DNA from: an uncultured Clostridia bacterium
GTDB taxonomy: Bacteria; Bacillota; Clostridia; Christensenellales; UBA1242
Direction: 5' to 3'
NCBI GenBank assembly: GCA_944376905.1
Contig: CALWEA010000004.1
Coordinates: 1 to 64,000, forward strand
Length of the DNA: 64,000 nt
Positions 88 to 56,022 of this stretch are shown here, piece by piece; within the stretch, counting starts at the first letter, position 1; every line of letters begins with the position of its first letter. The notes under the pieces are model-generated. The model was not told where the DNA came from. It searched no databases and worked only from the letters and a program-made list of their open reading frames with translations. The position numbers and the translations under genes were made by a program.

Positions 88-3000
88 TTATTTCATTCTT
101 TTTTCAAGTTTTTTCTTTGAAACTATGAAATAAGTTATAACACCAACCAAAAGAAGAACAGAAATAACAATTAAAATTGTTCCTAAAATTTCTTCTGCGC
201 TCATACCGTTATTTGGATTTTCACTAACAGAGAAATAAATATTATCATAAATTGCAACTTTCTTATTTGTATCGCTAATCTCAATAACTACATTATATTC
301 ACCAGCAGTTGTAATAGTATATTGGAAATTAAGATCTGTATCTGAACTAGTTACATCATTAGCAACTTCGCTACCAGTTGTTAAATTTTTAACAGTTATT
401 GTAATCTTCGCATTATCCTGAATAGAATATTTTTTAGTTGTTTCGTTATAGATTAAAATTTCACCATCAACTTTATCTATAGCAGAAATTTTAGACAAAT
501 CTACATTAATAACATCATTGATTTTATATTCACTTTTAAACAAATCATCTTCAACTGTGATTTTTGGAGGTTCAACATCGCCAACATCTAAAGTTGCAGA
601 TTGTTTTGTTTCATTACCATAAATATCAACAAGAGTATAGGTTATAGTGTAGGTTGCATCTTTTGAAAAAGTATAACCATTAAGTTCTTCAGGATTATTT
701 AAATAATAAGTAGTTCTAGAACTATTTGGTGCTGAAATGGTTACATAAGAAGTTGCCCAATCAATATCTTCATCATAGCATTGTGGAAGAGGAATATCCA
801 TTGTTGTTCCCGTAGCAACACTTCCATTTGCATTTTTTTCTGCAAAGTAACTTAAAATATCAGAGAAGTCAACAAATGTTGGGCCAGTTGTATCAGTTAC
901 TTCAATTTTAAATTCCTTACTTGTAACAGTTTCGTAAGGTGTATCATCATCTTCCAAAACTTCTGCTATATATTGGATTCTATAAGTTCCAATTTCATTT
1001 GGAGTGAAGAAATAGTTTGATTCAAGAGTATAATTTGTTGGACCTTTAACAACTACCCTATATGAATCATTTTTTAATTTAAGACTTGTATTAGACAAAT
1101 CAAGAGTTGGAATATCTAATTTAATTGTTTCGCCACGTTCTGCTTTTCCATTGTTAATTTCAGATGGCAAACCTTTAAATTCAAGAACTAAATCTTGAAG
1201 ATTTGCCTCAACATCAAGAGTGAAAACAACAATAGTTTTATTATTAGAAGCATCTGTTGTTACATATGTTATTTGATATTCACCAGACAAACTAGCAACA
1301 AATTTTGCATCTTTAACAGTTATTTGATTAGAACCAGCATCACGAATTATTTCAGCATCATAAGCATTAAATGGATTTGGAGTTGAAGGATTAGTTATTA
1401 TAATTTCAACATTAACGTAATCAACTAAATCATCACTATAAACAACAGTTGGAAGAGTTATTTCAGCACCTTGAACAAATCCAGCATCACTTTGTGTTAT
1501 ATTAGTATCTTTACTAACAACAGTTGTTGGAGTTGTATCGCCAGTTTTAAGAACAACAATAGTTTGTTCTGCTTTACCAATATTTCCACTGTCGTCTCTT
1601 GAATAAGCAATAACTTTAACTTTTTCAATAGTATTATCACTAACTGTTAATGTGTAAGTTTTTGTGTCCGCATCATACTTAATAATGCTATCAGCCTCAT
1701 CAGCACGAACTTCTTGACTTTCTATACCAGAAACAGTTGTTGTATAGGCAATATAAACACTTAAATGAGCATCTTTTGTGTCTGTTGTAGTTGGTGTTGC
1801 AAAATTAACTTCTTCATCTAAGAAAATAGCGTTTGGAAGATTTTCAACAAATTCAACTTTTGGAGCTTCTGTGTCTTCATAACCAGTTTCTAATTTAATT
1901 GTATAAGGAGCAGTTATAACACCATTACCCGCCTTATCATCAGCAACATAAGTAATAGTATATGTTCCAGCCTTTAAAGCATCTTCGTCAGTTTTTTCAG
2001 AAACAATATAAACTTGTGATTTTTTTATTGAATATGCTTTACCATTAACGTAAACAACAAAAACTTCACTATCATCTGTTCCAGTCATATCTAATGTTGA
2101 ATTAAACACAAGAAGTTTACCAGCAACATTTTCAGTTATATCTTTGCTTTCATCAAAAATAACTGTGTTTCTACTATTAGTTAATGTTCTATATAATTTA
2201 AGATTATTGTCAACAATACCATTTGCATTATCTGTTGCCCAAATAGGCATCATGATAACATTTTCAACATCACTATTGTTAGCAACTGCCTCTGATGCGT
2301 CAACATAATCTAAAATCCCATTAACAACATCGGCATCAGTGTAAGGTAATGTAACAACAGGAACTGGCGCTGTGCTATCTTGAACATCTGTGATTTCAAA
2401 ACTAGAACTAGAAACAGTTGCTTCTTTACCAAACAAATTTTTAACAATGTATGTTACAACATAATCACCATCTTTTATTGGTGTGAAATAAAATTGTCCA
2501 TCTTTAAAAGTTATAACATCATTATCAGCGTCATTTTCTGTATAAGTGTAAGTTTGTTCACCAATTTTCAAAACTGCTTTAACAGTGTAGTAGTATTCAA
2601 TTTGATCTTTTGTTTCTTTATTTTGAACTGTTATTTTTGGAAGTTTTGTTTCCTTACCAATTTCAGCAGTTGTTGGTTTAGTTCCATCATAATCAAAAGT
2701 AAATTCAAAATTATTATTATAAGAAAGGTCTGCTTTTATAGTTTCAGTTTTAAAAGCAACAAGTTTGACGCCATCAAGATATTTGTAAGTTATAGTGTAA
2801 GTTCCTTCTGCATTTTTATCCAACTGTAAAGTGTCTAACTTGGTTGAATCTTCAAGAGTTACAGCATCTTCTGTGAAAACAAAATTTGAACTATCTCCTG
2901 AAAAACTAACAGTTGTTGTTATTGTTGCATTTGGAATTTTATTGCCATCTTTGTCAACAACATAAGGATTAGGCAATGTTAATTTAAGACCTTCATTATT

Positions 3001-3432
3001 GTTGTTTGGATTTATAACACTAGGGATAATATACTTACTGTTTTCATCAAAAGTAATTTGAGTTCCCTGTGTAACACCTTCAACTTTAACTTTAAGGTCT
3101 GTTGACACACCATTGTATGTGTATGTGATTGTGTAATTTCCAGCGATATCTGGAACAAAAGTATTATCAACCACACTAACATCAACACCATAAGGGTTTT
3201 TAACTGTTACAGTTGCATTTCCACCAGCAACGGTACCAGTTGCAATTGGATAAACTTCACCTTTTTTGGCTGTGTCTTTGAAGTTTTCAATTTTAATTTC
3301 TTCAACAGCGGTAACAAATGATGACGTAGGTTCAGCATAGATTTTGGTTAAAGGCGTGAAAACAGGCAATGCTAGAGCAATACACATCACAAAAACCGCA
3401 ACAAAAGAAACTTTTTTAAGTGTTTTTTTCAT
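88..3432 (-). CDS. Large cell-surface protein with tandem Ig-like domains
   Basis: The 1114-residue protein starts with a signal peptide (MKK, then a hydrophobic run to about residue 33, AEP cleavage-like site) and ends with one membrane helix (about 1078-1102) followed by KKKLEKRMK, so it should sit anchored in the membrane with a long outer part. At least eight repeats end in variants of G-x-Y-x-I-T-Y followed by a D-x-x-G-N/K turn (for example GTYTITYVADDKAG and GEYQITYVTTDASN), typical of Ig-like folds of the DUF5011/HYR kind. No LPxTG motif is present. The start has GGAG 8 nt upstream. The ligand is unknown; adhesion or an S-layer-like role is inference. Confidence 0.85.
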   Translation of the reverse strand: MKKTLKKVSFVAVFVMCIALALPVFTPLTKIYAEPTSSFVTAVEEIKIENFKDTAKKGEVYPIATGTVAGGNATVTVKNPYGVDVSVVDNTFVPDIAGNYTITYTYNGVSTDLKVKVEGVTQGTQITFDENSKYIIPSVINPNNNNEGLKLTLPNPYVVDKDGNKIPNATITTTVSFSGDSSNFVFTEDAVTLEDSTKLDTLQLDKNAEGTYTITYKYLDGVKLVAFKTETIKADLSYNNNFEFTFDYDGTKPTTAEIGKETKLPKITVQNKETKDQIEYYYTVKAVLKIGEQTYTYTENDADNDVITFKDGQFYFTPIKDGDYVVTYIVKNLFGKEATVSSSSFEITDVQDSTAPVPVVTLPYTDADVVNGILDYVDASEAVANNSDVENVIMMPIWATDNANGIVDNNLKLYRTLTNSRNTVIFDESKDITENVAGKLLVFNSTLDMTGTDDSEVFVVYVNGKAYSIKKSQVYIVSEKTDEDALKAGTYTITYVADDKAGNGVITAPYTIKLETGYEDTEAPKVEFVENLPNAIFLDEEVNFATPTTTDTKDAHLSVYIAYTTTVSGIESQEVRADEADSIIKYDADTKTYTLTVSDNTIEKVKVIAYSRDDSGNIGKAEQTIVVLKTGDTTPTTVVSKDTNITQSDAGFVQGAEITLPTVVYSDDLVDYVNVEIIITNPSTPNPFNAYDAEIIRDAGSNQITVKDAKFVASLSGEYQITYVTTDASNNKTIVVFTLDVEANLQDLVLEFKGLPSEINNGKAERGETIKLDIPTLDLSNTSLKLKNDSYRVVVKGPTNYTLESNYFFTPNEIGTYRIQYIAEVLEDDDTPYETVTSKEFKIEVTDTTGPTFVDFSDILSYFAEKNANGSVATGTTMDIPLPQCYDEDIDWATSYVTISAPNSSRTTYYLNNPEELNGYTFSKDATYTITYTLVDIYGNETKQSATLDVGDVEPPKITVEDDLFKSEYKINDVINVDLSKISAIDKVDGEILIYNETTKKYSIQDNAKITITVKNLTTGSEVANDVTSSDTDLNFQYTITTAGEYNVVIEISDTNKKVAIYDNIYFSVSENPNNGMSAEEILGTILIVISVLLLVGVITYFIVSKKKLEKRMK

Positions 3433-23281: not shown

Positions 23282-23481
23282 AACTGCGTATTTAATGTAT
23301 AAATACGCAGTTTTTTTCAATATATAGCAAATAATTTTAGTATATAAAAACATAAAAAGCATAAAACAAAATAAAAACATATAAAATTTTTAAAAAATAT
23401 TTGATATTTATGTTTTATTATGCTAAAATATTGTTATTGAAATAAGAATAAACTGCGTATATATACATTATATACGCAGTT
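23282..23481. repeat. 200-bp element with paired 31-bp palindromes (copy 1)
   Basis: Palindromes at 23282-23312 and 23451-23481 have 13-bp arms beginning AACTGCGTAT around a 5-bp core. The core is ATGTA on the left and TACAT on the right, so the two are inverted to each other. The flanking inner sequences also form an imperfect inverted repeat (AACATAAA and GCATAA words). The rest of the 22917-23750 gap is the shared cassette leader and A/T sequence. Confidence 0.9.
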
Positions 23482-41227: not shown

Positions 41228-41427
41228 AACTGCGTATTTAATGTATATATACGCAGTGATTTTCAATATATAGTGAAAAATTTTAGTAAATAAAAACATA
41301 AAAAGCATAAAACAAAATAAAAACATATAAAATTTTTAAAAAATATTTGATATTTATGTTTTATTATGCTAAAATATTATTGTTGAAATAAGAAAAAACT
41401 GCGTATTTATACATTAAATACGCAGTT
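41228..41427. repeat. 200-bp element with paired palindromes (copy 2)
   Basis: Palindromes at 41228-41257 and 41397-41427. The right one is perfect (13-bp arms, TACAT core) and is followed on the minus strand by TTTTTT, so it can terminate transcription coming from the upstream gene. The interior is nearly identical to copy 4. Confidence 0.9.
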
Positions 41428-47006: not shown

Positions 47007-47206
47007 AACTGCGTATTTAATGTATAAATACGCAGTAATTTTCAAGATGAGTAAATAATTTTAGTAAATAAAAACATAAACAGCATAAATCAATGTCAAA
47101 AAATATAGAAAATTTAAAAATTTATTTGCTATTTATGTTTTATTATGCTAAAATATTTTTGATGAGATGAAAAATTACTGCGTATATATACATTATATAC
47201 GCAGTT
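47007..47206. repeat. 200-bp element with paired palindromes (copy 3)
   Basis: Palindromes at 47007-47036 and 47177-47206, the most diverged interior of the four copies. The right palindrome lies 70 bp after the dnaJ stop and, with the T-rich stretch that follows on the minus strand, probably serves as the dnaJ terminator. Confidence 0.88.
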
Positions 47207-47276: not shown

Positions 47277-48410
47277 TTATTTATTTAAATTGTCAAGAAT
47301 TTTTTTATATTTAGGGAATTGATTAACAGGAGTTTCTTTTGCAATTGATTTAATAATTTCCTTTGTTTTTCTATCGAAAGATTTAGGAAACTCTGCTTTC
47401 AATGTAACCAACATATCTCCATAAATATCCCTATTCAACATTTTTACGCCTTTATTTTTTAATCTCATAACTGTTCCGCTTTGTGTTAATTCGGGAATAT
47501 TCAATTCATACAACCCATTAACTGTTGGAATTTCAACTTTTCCTCCTAAAATTAAAGTTGTGTATGGCAAATATAGATCTAACAAAATATCAATACCATT
47601 TCTTACTAAAATTTTATGTGGAATTATTTTTATCTTGACATTTAAATCTCCACTAATTCCATCTCGAACAGGTGCGTTACCTTGCCCCTGCATACGCAAT
47701 ATTTGACCATCGTCTATACCTGCTGGGATTTTTAATGTTACTTTTGAACGGGTTTTTTCAGCACCTTTTCCGCCACACTCTGCACATTTTTCTCTTATTA
47801 TTTTTCCAGTTCCACCACAAGTTTTACAAATCCCCTCGCGTATTGTTGTTCCATAAAATGTGTTTTGTGTAAATCTAACACGTCCCGTTCCCTTACATTC
47901 CCCACAAGTCGAAAACTCTTTGCCATTTTTTGCACCAGTTCCAGAGCATGAAGAACATTTTTCATATCGGTTAACAAGAATTTCTTTTGTGCAACCAAAA
48001 ACAGCCTCATTAAAATCTATTGTTAATTGCAAATCTATATCAGCGCCCTTCTCCATAACACGAGTTCTTCCACTTCCTCCTCCTCCAAATGCAGAAAATA
48101 TATCACTAAATATATCGGAAAAACTTCCAGAAAAACTTGAAAATCCACCAGCTCGCCCAGCCCCACCAAACATATCACTAAAATCAGCATGACCATCTGC
48201 ACTTCCAAATTGGTCATAATTAGAACGTTTAGTTTCGTCTGACAAAACTTCATAAGCCTCATTAATTTCTTTAAATTTTTCTGATGCCCCAGGTTCTTTA
48301 TTTATATCAGGATGATATTTTTTTGCTAATTTTCTATATGCCGATTTTATTTCATCAGAACTTGCATTTTTTTCAACACCAAGAATTTTATAGTAGTCTT
48401 TACTTGCCAT
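47277..48410 (-). CDS. dnaJ: Chaperone DnaJ
   Basis: Co-chaperone that loads substrates on DnaK. 377 residues: J domain with HPD in KKYHPDIN (about 30-37), a Gly/Phe region (about 75-115), four CxxCxGxG zinc repeats ([32 protein letters not shown] at about 150-215) and the C-terminal substrate domains. GAGGAA precedes the ATG. Last gene of the hrcA operon, separated from dnaK by 271 bp that contains the cloverleaf at 48470-48545. Confidence 0.98.
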
Positions 48411-48469
48411 TTTTTCCTCATTCTTTTTTTAATTTTTTATTTATTTTTATATTGTACTTATATAAGCAA

Positions 48470-48545
48470 CTGGTGCCCACACTTTGCCTTGGCAAAGTGT
48501 TATGCGTTTTACGCATTGCGTCAATTCTTTGACGCTGGGCACCAG
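48470..48545. repeat. 76-nt perfect cloverleaf of four palindromic stems
   Basis: An outer 10-bp stem (CTGGTGCCCA at 48470-48479 with TGGGCACCAG at 48536-48545) encloses three hairpins: CACTTTGCC/GGCAAAGTG (48480-48499), ATGCGT/ACGCAT (48502-48516) and GCGTCAA/TTGACGC (48518-48535). All stems are free of mismatches and only three junction bases are unpaired. It is more GC-rich than its A/T surroundings. It lies in the dnaK-dnaJ spacer, so the RNA could block, pause or protect the transcript; as DNA it could form a cruciform. Confidence 0.92.
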
Positions 48546-48681
48546 ATGTTACAAAACTAATTACAACTTATCAATTTAAATATATAATATTTTAAAAATT
48601 AATATTGTTAAAATTAAAAAACTTTAAATGAAATATTTTTTAATCTTATTACAATCAATTATATCAAAAAAATATTAATTT

Positions 48682-50499
48682 TTATTCAACAACAACCTCA
48701 GGGTCTCCATCATTTTTTTCGTCTTTATCTTTTTTATTGTTTTCTGCTTGCGCTTGTGCTGAAGCTTGTTGATACAATTTAGTCATCACTTCACTTGAAG
48801 CAGATGAAAGTTCTTCAATTGCACTTCGAATTTTTTCCACATCATCAGTTTCAAATTGAGGTTTTGCTTTTGCAAGTGCATCTTCCAATTTTTTCTTATC
48901 TTCTTCAGTAATTTTATCTGCACTTTCTTTTATAACTTTTTCAATTGAGTAAACAAGATTGTCGGCTTGATTTTTAACTTCAACTAATTCTTTACGTTTT
49001 TTATCTTCTTCTGCATGTGCTTCGGCATCTTTAATAGCTCTTTCAATTTCGTCATCTTTAAGATTTGAAGACGCTGTTATAGTTATACTTTGTTCTTTAC
49101 CAGTTCCAAGGTCTTTTGCTGAAACGTGAACAATTCCATTTGCATCAATATCAAATGTAACTTCAATTTGAGGAATTCCACGAGGTGCTGGAGGAATATC
49201 TCTAAGTTCAAACTTGCCAAGAGTTTTATTTTGGGCAGCAAACTCACGTTCACCTTGAAGAACATGTATATCAACACCTGGTTGATTATCAACAGCGGTT
49301 GAGAAAATTTGAGATTTTTTAGTTGGGATAGTTGTATTACGCTCAATCAATTTAGTGAAAACACCACCCAAAGTTTCAATACCTAAAGAAAGAGGAGTTA
49401 CATCTAGCAATAAAACATCTTTAACTTCTCCACCCAAAACACCAGCTTGAATTGCTGCTCCAATAGCAACACATTCATCAGGATTTATACCTTTATATGG
49501 TTCTTTGCCAGTGAAATCTTGAACTGCTTTAACAACGGCAGGAATTCTAGTTGAACCACCTACAAGAACAACTTTACTAATATCATTTATAGTAAGATTA
49601 GCATCTTTTAGTGCGTTCTTAGTACAAGTTATAGTTTCAGCAACCAAAGATTCTGTTATACTATCGAATTTAGCACGAGTTAACTCAAAATTTAAATGTT
49701 TTGGACCATTTGCATCAGCAGTAATAAATGGTATGTTAATATCAGTTTTTAAACCAGCAGAAAGTTCAATCTTTGCTTTTTCTGCTTCTTCTTTTAGTCT
49801 TTGCATTGCAAGTTTATCTTTAGAAAGGTCAATTCCCTCTGCTTTTTTGAAATCTTCAACCAACAAATTTATTATAGCATTATCAAAATCATCACCACCC
49901 AATCGAGTGTTACCATTAGTTGCCAAAACTTCAAAAACTCCGTCACCAATTTCCAAAATAGAAACATCAAACGTTCCACCACCAAGGTCATAAACCAATA
50001 TTTTTTGATTTTTGTTTTCACCTTTATCAAGTCCATAAGCAAGAGCAGCCGCAGTTGGTTCATTAATAATTCTTAAAACTTCCAAACCAGCAATTTTACC
50101 AGCATCTTTTGTTGCCTGTCTTTGACTATCGTTAAAATAAGCAGGAACAGTTATGACAGCCTGTGTAACTTTACCTCCTAAATAACTTTCCGCATCTGCT
50201 TTTAATTTTGACAATATCATAGCAGAAATTTCTTGAGGTGAATAATCTTTGCCACCTATTTTAACTTTGTAGTTTGTCCCCATTTCTCTTTTTATAGAAG
50301 AAACAGTGTTTTCATGATTTGCAATCGCTTGACGCTTTGCAACTTTACCAACTAATCTTTCACCATCTTTAGTAAACGCAACAACACTAGGAGTTGTTCT
50401 ATCTCCTTCTGCATTTGCAATAACAGTTGGTTTTCCCCCTTCCATAACAGCAACACAAGAATTTGTTGTTCCTAAATCAATACCTATAATTTTTGACAT
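48682..50499 (-). CDS. dnaK: Chaperone DnaK (Hsp70)
   Basis: ATP-driven chaperone of 605 residues, typical for Gram-positives. The ATPase domain shows [18 protein letters not shown] at the N-terminus, [19 protein letters not shown] and [10 protein letters not shown] (about 330). The substrate domain has [14 protein letters not shown] and [14 protein letters not shown], followed by the helical lid and a charged, Gln/Ala tail. AAGGAG precedes the ATG. Third gene of the hrcA-grpE-dnaK-dnaJ operon. Between it and grpE (50500-50634) the 20-bp word TTATAATTTTTTACATATTA is repeated in tandem. Confidence 0.98.
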
Positions 50500-55823: not shown

Positions 55824-56022
55824 AACTGCGTATTTAATGTATATATACGCAGTGATTTTCAATATATAGTGAAAAATTTTAGTAAATAAAAACATAAAAA
55901 GCATAAAACAAAATAAAAACATATAAAATTTTTAAAAAATATTTGATAATTATGTTTTATTATGCTAAAATATTATTGTTGAGATAAGAAAAAACTGCGT
56001 ATATATACATTATATACGCAGT
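55824..56022. repeat. 200-bp element with paired palindromes (copy 4)
   Basis: Palindromes at 55824-55853 and 55993-56022 with inverted ATGTA/TACAT cores. The interior differs from copy 2 at only a few positions. The right palindrome is followed by T on the minus strand and can terminate the phosphohexomutase transcript. Confidence 0.9.

Follow-up and report, generated by a model that had tools for sequence, protein, structure and literature searches.

A shape-defined family of dispersed and probably mobile palindromic cloverleaf elements in uncultured Clostridia, with one copy between dnaK and dnaJ

Hairpin elements that lie dispersed between genes have been described in organelles. In the sponge mitochondrial RHE, the stems are conserved and substitutions occur in the loops only; a triple-hairpin form is found in Igernella, and the spread is lineage-specific (PMC2800124). 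In the placozoan palindromes, the loops are free and the stems have the form GGVBCC-(N)3-GGVBCC (PMC7813641); those of Volvox are inserted into one another (PMC2670323). Another described class is that of the REPs, which measure 20-40 bp and most of which carry a GTAG or CGTC tag at one of their ends (PMC3733652). The present analysis concerns a cloverleaf-forming palindrome in the genome of an uncultured Clostridia bacterium (the host, G000; 1.37 Mb in 28 contigs), the closest named relatives of which are uncultured Clostridia. It is situated in the window, i.e. the whole stretch of 64,000 nucleotides that was analysed (contig CALWEA010000004.1, positions 1 to 64,000). It looks like a member of a shape-defined element family and not like a heat-shock control device, because cloverleafs of the same shape are scattered between genes and similar ones of relatives are apparently able to move.

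The 76-nt cloverleaf that the first-pass annotation had reported at 48470-48545 was recovered with the same sequence and coordinates (Table 1). The MFE of positions 48440-48575 was -49.7 kcal/mol, versus -23.8 kcal/mol (sd 3.1) in 200 shuffles (z = -8.4). Three of the four annotated stems (10, 6, and 7 bp) and the three unpaired junction bases (48500, 48501, and 48517) were found as described; the remaining one, given as 9 bp, is an arm of 8 bp with a 4-nt loop, the pairing of 48480-48488 with 48491-48499 (9 bp) being obtained when a 2-nt loop is permitted. The element lies within the 271-nt dnaK-dnaJ spacer of an hrcA-grpE-dnaK-dnaJ operon, the genes of which were identified by sequence. Around the cloverleaf, this spacer is very A/T-rich, albeit not strictly A/T-only as had been annotated. 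The stems are palindromic in DNA and both strands fold, a property that is relevant as G-U pairs are nearly absent from these elements. Also, the tRNA-like size without tRNA features was borne out. The element shares with tRNA the cloverleaf and a length of about 76 nt, but it folds on both strands and has no conserved loops; Rfam and ARAGORN detected no tRNA in it, and neither the window element nor the elements of relatives gave an Rfam match at gathering score.

Table 1. Coordinates of the cloverleaf and its neighbours in the window, and of the other three-armed elements found by the structure scan of the host genome (G000)
Feature	Location	Strand	Remarks
Cloverleaf element, 76 nt, four-way junction, three arms	window 48470..48545		palindromic, both strands
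Closing stem, left strand CTGGTGCCCA	window 48470..48479		pairs with 48536-48545, 10 bp
Closing stem, right strand TGGGCACCAG	window 48536..48545		
Arm 1, CACTTTGC-CTTG-GCAAAGTG	window 48480..48499		8 bp + 4-nt loop; 9 bp if loop TT
Arm 2, ATGCGT-TTT-ACGCAT	window 48502..48516		48502-48507 with 48511-48516, 6 bp
Arm 3, GCGTCAA-TTCT-TTGACGC	window 48518..48535		48518-48524 with 48529-48535, 7 bp
dnaJ	window 47277..48410	-	downstream neighbour; ORF call, identity from sequence and relatives
dnaK	window 48682..50499	-	upstream neighbour; ORF call, identity from sequence
Host elements on C1	15091-15175; 292007-292090		structure scan
Host elements on C3	61180-61260; 63846-63925; 67108-67183		structure scan
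Host element on C23 (locus L194)	1174-1255		structure scan
Host element on C8	37744-37814		structure scan
Host element on C9	35394-35474		structure scan

A first line of evidence comes from the host genome itself. The first matches of the same layout and another sequence were obtained with a structure script on fetched loci. This script ignores sequence, demands Watson-Crick pairs, and retrieves perfect closing stems of at least 6 bp that enclose a chain of at least three perfect hairpins with gaps of at most 4 nt; the scan covered 1,364,703 of the 1,371,802 host bases (99.5%). At least nine three-armed elements of 71-85 nt and 29-36 pairs were found, which are distinguished by their G+C content and compactness. 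Indeed, a G+C fraction of at least 0.2 combined with a closing stem of at least 7 bp returned exactly nine structures, all nine of them three-armed, and no two-, four- or more-armed structure was present in the host scan at that G+C fraction. The other three-arm matches in the host were A/T-rich and loose; a few had an equal number of pairs, but their G+C fraction was 0.06-0.16 and their gaps were larger. Three whole-genome first-order (dinucleotide) Markov shuffles yielded ten matches, all with at most 26 pairs, whereas the window element has 31, and composition-matched shuffles yielded zero elements of this kind. Chance folding is ruled out by these shuffles. A loose MFE scan for multiloops was discarded, as it was swamped by folds of coding sequences. 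Elsewhere in the host genome (L208 11743-11942; C6:31743-31942), four hairpins were seen about 56-63 nt apart; in their CGC...GCG stems, among them CGCATTATCAACATTTGATAATGCG and CGCTGTATCAACATTTGATACAGCG, the differences are paired.

The nine host elements show no overall sequence identity. A blastn search of the window element against its own genome gave, apart from the element itself, no more than two short matches at chance level (E 0.19 and 0.67), and a sequence search of 60 relatives returned only chance-level matches. The window element is unique by sequence, not by structure. The genome-wide search by structure that the first-pass annotation had proposed thus gave nine same-shape elements of differing sequence, and uniqueness without conserved pairing, which it had named as the refutation of its reading, did not hold, as the element has structural counterparts and pairing is kept. 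Since no overall sequence is shared, the case for common descent of the host copies is built on their structure, together with a closing-stem motif that is shared in part and arms that resemble one another. The motif CGTC occurs inside two host closing stems. A MAFFT alignment of the nine elements was meaningless (36% mean column identity) and was rejected.

Secondly, similar elements are present in relatives. In G004, which belongs to the same genus as the host, ten elements were found in the 557 kb scanned, nine by the strict scan and one with G-U pairs allowed, and several of them group into sub-families. One lies in the dnaK-dnaJ spacer; it is one of a dispersed set, because it has its CAGCGG closing stem and two arms in common with the elements at L306 and L275. 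Another congener, G002, contains three elements (L017, L228, and L226). In a second genus, six copies in G101, in both orientations, and one in G126 are alike in sequence, with the layout GGCATTGC (AATTTTGAC-n3-GTCAAAATT) A (TAACTTGC-n4-GCAAGTTA) T (CTTTTGC-n2-GCAAAAG) GCAATGCC, and one element is present in G080 (L033). Several host copies also have arms of the CTTTTGC type, a sequence likeness that hints at common descent across genera. Over the whole family, the closing stem measures 7-14 bp, there are exactly three hairpin arms, the length is 71-106 nt, and the density amounts to roughly one element per 50-150 kb. In a third genus, a degenerate relative (L236; G331 C5:4506-4583) was observed, in which the closing stem is GGCATTGC and a single arm (GCACTTGCC/GGCAAGTGC) is perfect. 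A more distant uncultured Clostridia contig (CANREM010000001.1; L067 3742-3845, minus strand) harbours a nested palindrome that is larger and G+C-rich, one closing stem enclosing five arms.

Thirdly, Watson-Crick double changes preserve the stems. A covariance model (R1), for which the C23 copy was the sole source and which was run with filters off on eight loci, recovered the other elements given, the best recovery being the window element (E = 1.4e-10). In the R1 alignment, 98.6% of the cells were paired, 35 of 35 pairs showed double changes, double-changed cells numbered 173 versus 49 shuffled, and no pair showed a one-sided G-U change; these counts serve as description and not as a test, given that some elements are represented by both of their strands as separate rows and that the alignment had itself been fitted to the fold. 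The compensatory changes for which the first-pass annotation had advised to look are found both in this alignment and among the copies of relatives. Covariance searches with default filters missed distant members, including the window copy, and absences obtained in that way from many genomes carry little weight. Among the seven sequence-related copies of G101 and G126, the hairpin tips are near-random, the three loops differing at 121 of 189 pairwise sites (64%), versus 24 of 1008 (2.4%) for the arm stems; 221 of their 224 stem cells are Watson-Crick, with four double and three single changes. Furthermore, G-U pairs made up 6 of 1031 pairs over 29 elements, versus 50 of 804 in the tRNA stems of the host. 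This scarcity is not only a matter of ascertainment, because a rescan with G-U pairs allowed added no element in the host and one in G004. It points to pairing that is maintained at the DNA level.

Double changes of the Watson-Crick type and variation confined to loops are what hairpin-templated correction would produce, and the elements could be old inserts or random palindromes without function or recognition, held perfect solely by template switching at replication forks. This is unlikely, as it leaves unexplained both the constant number of three arms and the dispersed homologous copies in both orientations.

The genomic contexts extend to all kinds of spacers. According to a simple ORF caller, 13 of the 29 elements are in co-directional, seven in convergent, and four in divergent contexts, two lie at a contig edge, and three overlap a long ORF; in most contexts, no ORF fills the element. 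In one region of the host (L172 1180-7183; C3:61180-67183), three of the nine cloverleafs, unrelated in sequence, share a stretch of 6 kb close to secE-nusG-rplK-rplA and rpmA, and the syntenic region of G004 contains no cloverleafs. The G+C-rich stems, which are conspicuous against a genomic G+C content of about 27%, might be taken for intrinsic terminators of transcription or for folds that arise by chance in A/T-rich spacers, but it is hardly credible that they are either. Indeed, the T-run that directly follows the stem of an intrinsic terminator is absent at the window element and does not adjoin most of the others, copies are found in promoter spacers of divergent genes and within operons (nusG-rplK, for instance), and shuffles never attained the score of the elements.

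A local role had also been suggested, namely a processing or decay barrier between the levels of dnaK and dnaJ; the transcribed cloverleaf would then keep dnaK above dnaJ. Throughout the family, the dnaK-dnaJ spacers often contain stable hairpins, and the host and G004 both have a cloverleaf in this spacer, the two sequences being entirely different. However, the same shape is found elsewhere, in spacers between divergent or convergent genes and in those of other operons, the G004 copy belongs to a dispersed sub-family, and G-U pairs, to be expected of a selected RNA, are nearly absent. Moreover, among the dnaK-dnaJ spacers of five congeners, that of G004 alone contains a cloverleaf, that of G001 a less regular branched fold, and those of G006, G007, and G002 simple hairpins. 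The proposal of a dnaK/dnaJ processing or decay device was consequently not upheld, and a local RNA device is improbable. As the 30 dnaK-dnaJ spacers of the family that were examined usually hold one simple hairpin or none, structure in this spacer may in general have a role, the cloverleaf not being its conserved form.

Two spacers are each occupied in two species, namely the dnaK-dnaJ spacer (host and G004) and a spacer beside a terminase-like gene (host and G101). This may reflect an insertion preference, or retention or a role rather than random insertion. Together with the four-way junction and the near-pure Watson-Crick pairing on both strands, it would also suit a non-mobile target for recombination or replication, i.e. 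a cruciform or Holliday-junction-like site selected at fixed places. Such a target is nevertheless quite unlikely, given that the remaining spacers with findable orthologues in the host or G004 are empty in the other species, that copy turnover between species is high, and that four congeners of G101 have an empty site where this genome has a copy. Regarding the latter, G127 represents the empty site for the G101 insert at L227 (about 1500-1651), its flanks matching query positions 1-1502 and 1652-3083 with a 3-nt overlap; G019, G080, and G126 likewise lack the insert. The elements look mobile because one of the six G101 copies is thus absent at the same site in four congeners. The insert of about 150 bp consists of the cloverleaf and a tail of about 65 nt, which is common to some of the G101 and G126 copies; no shared tail was found among the host elements. 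A possible target-site duplication (AAA) lies in an A-run, and none is clear. A second empty-site comparison, with L238, was dropped, as its rearranged neighbourhood made it uninformative. Mobility is hence seen for a related copy in G101 via its empty site, and by extension the window copy would be mobile too.

Among the readings of the window cloverleaf offered by the first-pass annotation, a mobile palindromic repeat is supported by nine same-shape elements in the host, more in relatives, and the insertion polymorphism of one related copy. Most likely, the window cloverleaf is a copy of a dispersed, non-coding, mobile family of palindromic DNA elements that is defined by its shape and occurs in this uncultured Clostridia family. 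Linkage of the elements to a transposase or another mobilising gene was not found, and two patterns searched in viral contigs, with a phage vector in mind, gave no match. A Y1 transposase is present in the host and absent from G101, G002, and G004, all of which carry elements; it was rejected as a general mobiliser, as it is absent where the copies are most alike. At L260 (host C6:33305-33661), an IS200-type Y1 transposase was observed with a AACCACCGG/CCGGTGGTT hairpin just upstream, and no link to the cloverleafs was seen. Movement would occur in trans, aided by enzymes of the host or of mobile elements that recognise the folded cloverleaf, either as an extruded cruciform or as a single strand. 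Recognition of the folded form would account for the fold, and not the sequence, being kept, and hairpin-templated mismatch correction possibly helps. The dnaK-dnaJ spacer would then be a tolerant insertion site, any effect on mRNA processing or decay there being a by-product or a later use. A more far-reaching proposal, which is doubtful, is a bacterial mobile DNA recognised by shape only, whereby the folded substrate moves, hairpin copying continually re-perfects the stems, and the tips are opened and resealed with random bases in the process, so that the fold is kept and sequence identity is lost.

Sequence-based repeat finders overlook these elements, as the blastn search against the host genome illustrates. 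If the family is kept by shape and not by sequence, a class of mobile DNA goes unnoticed when repeats are annotated in small uncultured genomes. In addition, the frozen stems versus the randomised hairpin tips offer a testable handle on how short chromosomal palindromes move and stay perfect, a question that is left open for the organellar hairpin elements.

Compared with known systems, the cloverleafs resemble REP/BIME with RAYT (Y1) as small, dispersed, extragenic, non-coding palindromes. REP/BIME consist of a single palindrome of 20-40 bp, whereas the cloverleafs comprise three arms and a closing stem over 71-106 nt, and the Y1 (RAYT-like) transposase occurs in the host genome but not in G101, G002, and G004. 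With MITEs, the cloverleafs have in common that they are short and non-coding and end in terminal inverted repeats, i.e. the closing stem of 7-14 bp. Presence/absence at orthologous sites was found for the G101 copy at L227, not for the window copy, and the sequence identity that MITE copies keep is kept in G101 but not in the host. A conventional MITE-like repeat, 198 bp long and palindromic at its ends (ACTGCGTATTTAATGTATAAATACGCAGT), was observed in the window too (47008-47205, 55825-56022, 23283-23480, and 41229-41426); it has about 20 copies in the host genome, mostly of 84-92% identity, and is absent from the fetched part of G004. A search of the open-access literature, with most subscription journals outside its scope, returned no bacterial three-arm family. 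The sponge RHE, the Allomyces DHE, and the Volvox and placozoan repeats share with the cloverleafs that they are short, non-coding, intergenic palindromes, and the seven related copies display the same dispersed hairpins with conserved stems and free loops. The organellar elements are located in organelles, whereas the cloverleafs reside on a bacterial chromosome with ribosomal and heat-shock operons, and they differ by a fixed three-arm four-way junction and a sequence that is nearly free within a genome. By this analogy, the organellar hairpin elements are best read as the nearest published pattern, and the cloverleafs as a bacterial counterpart of them.
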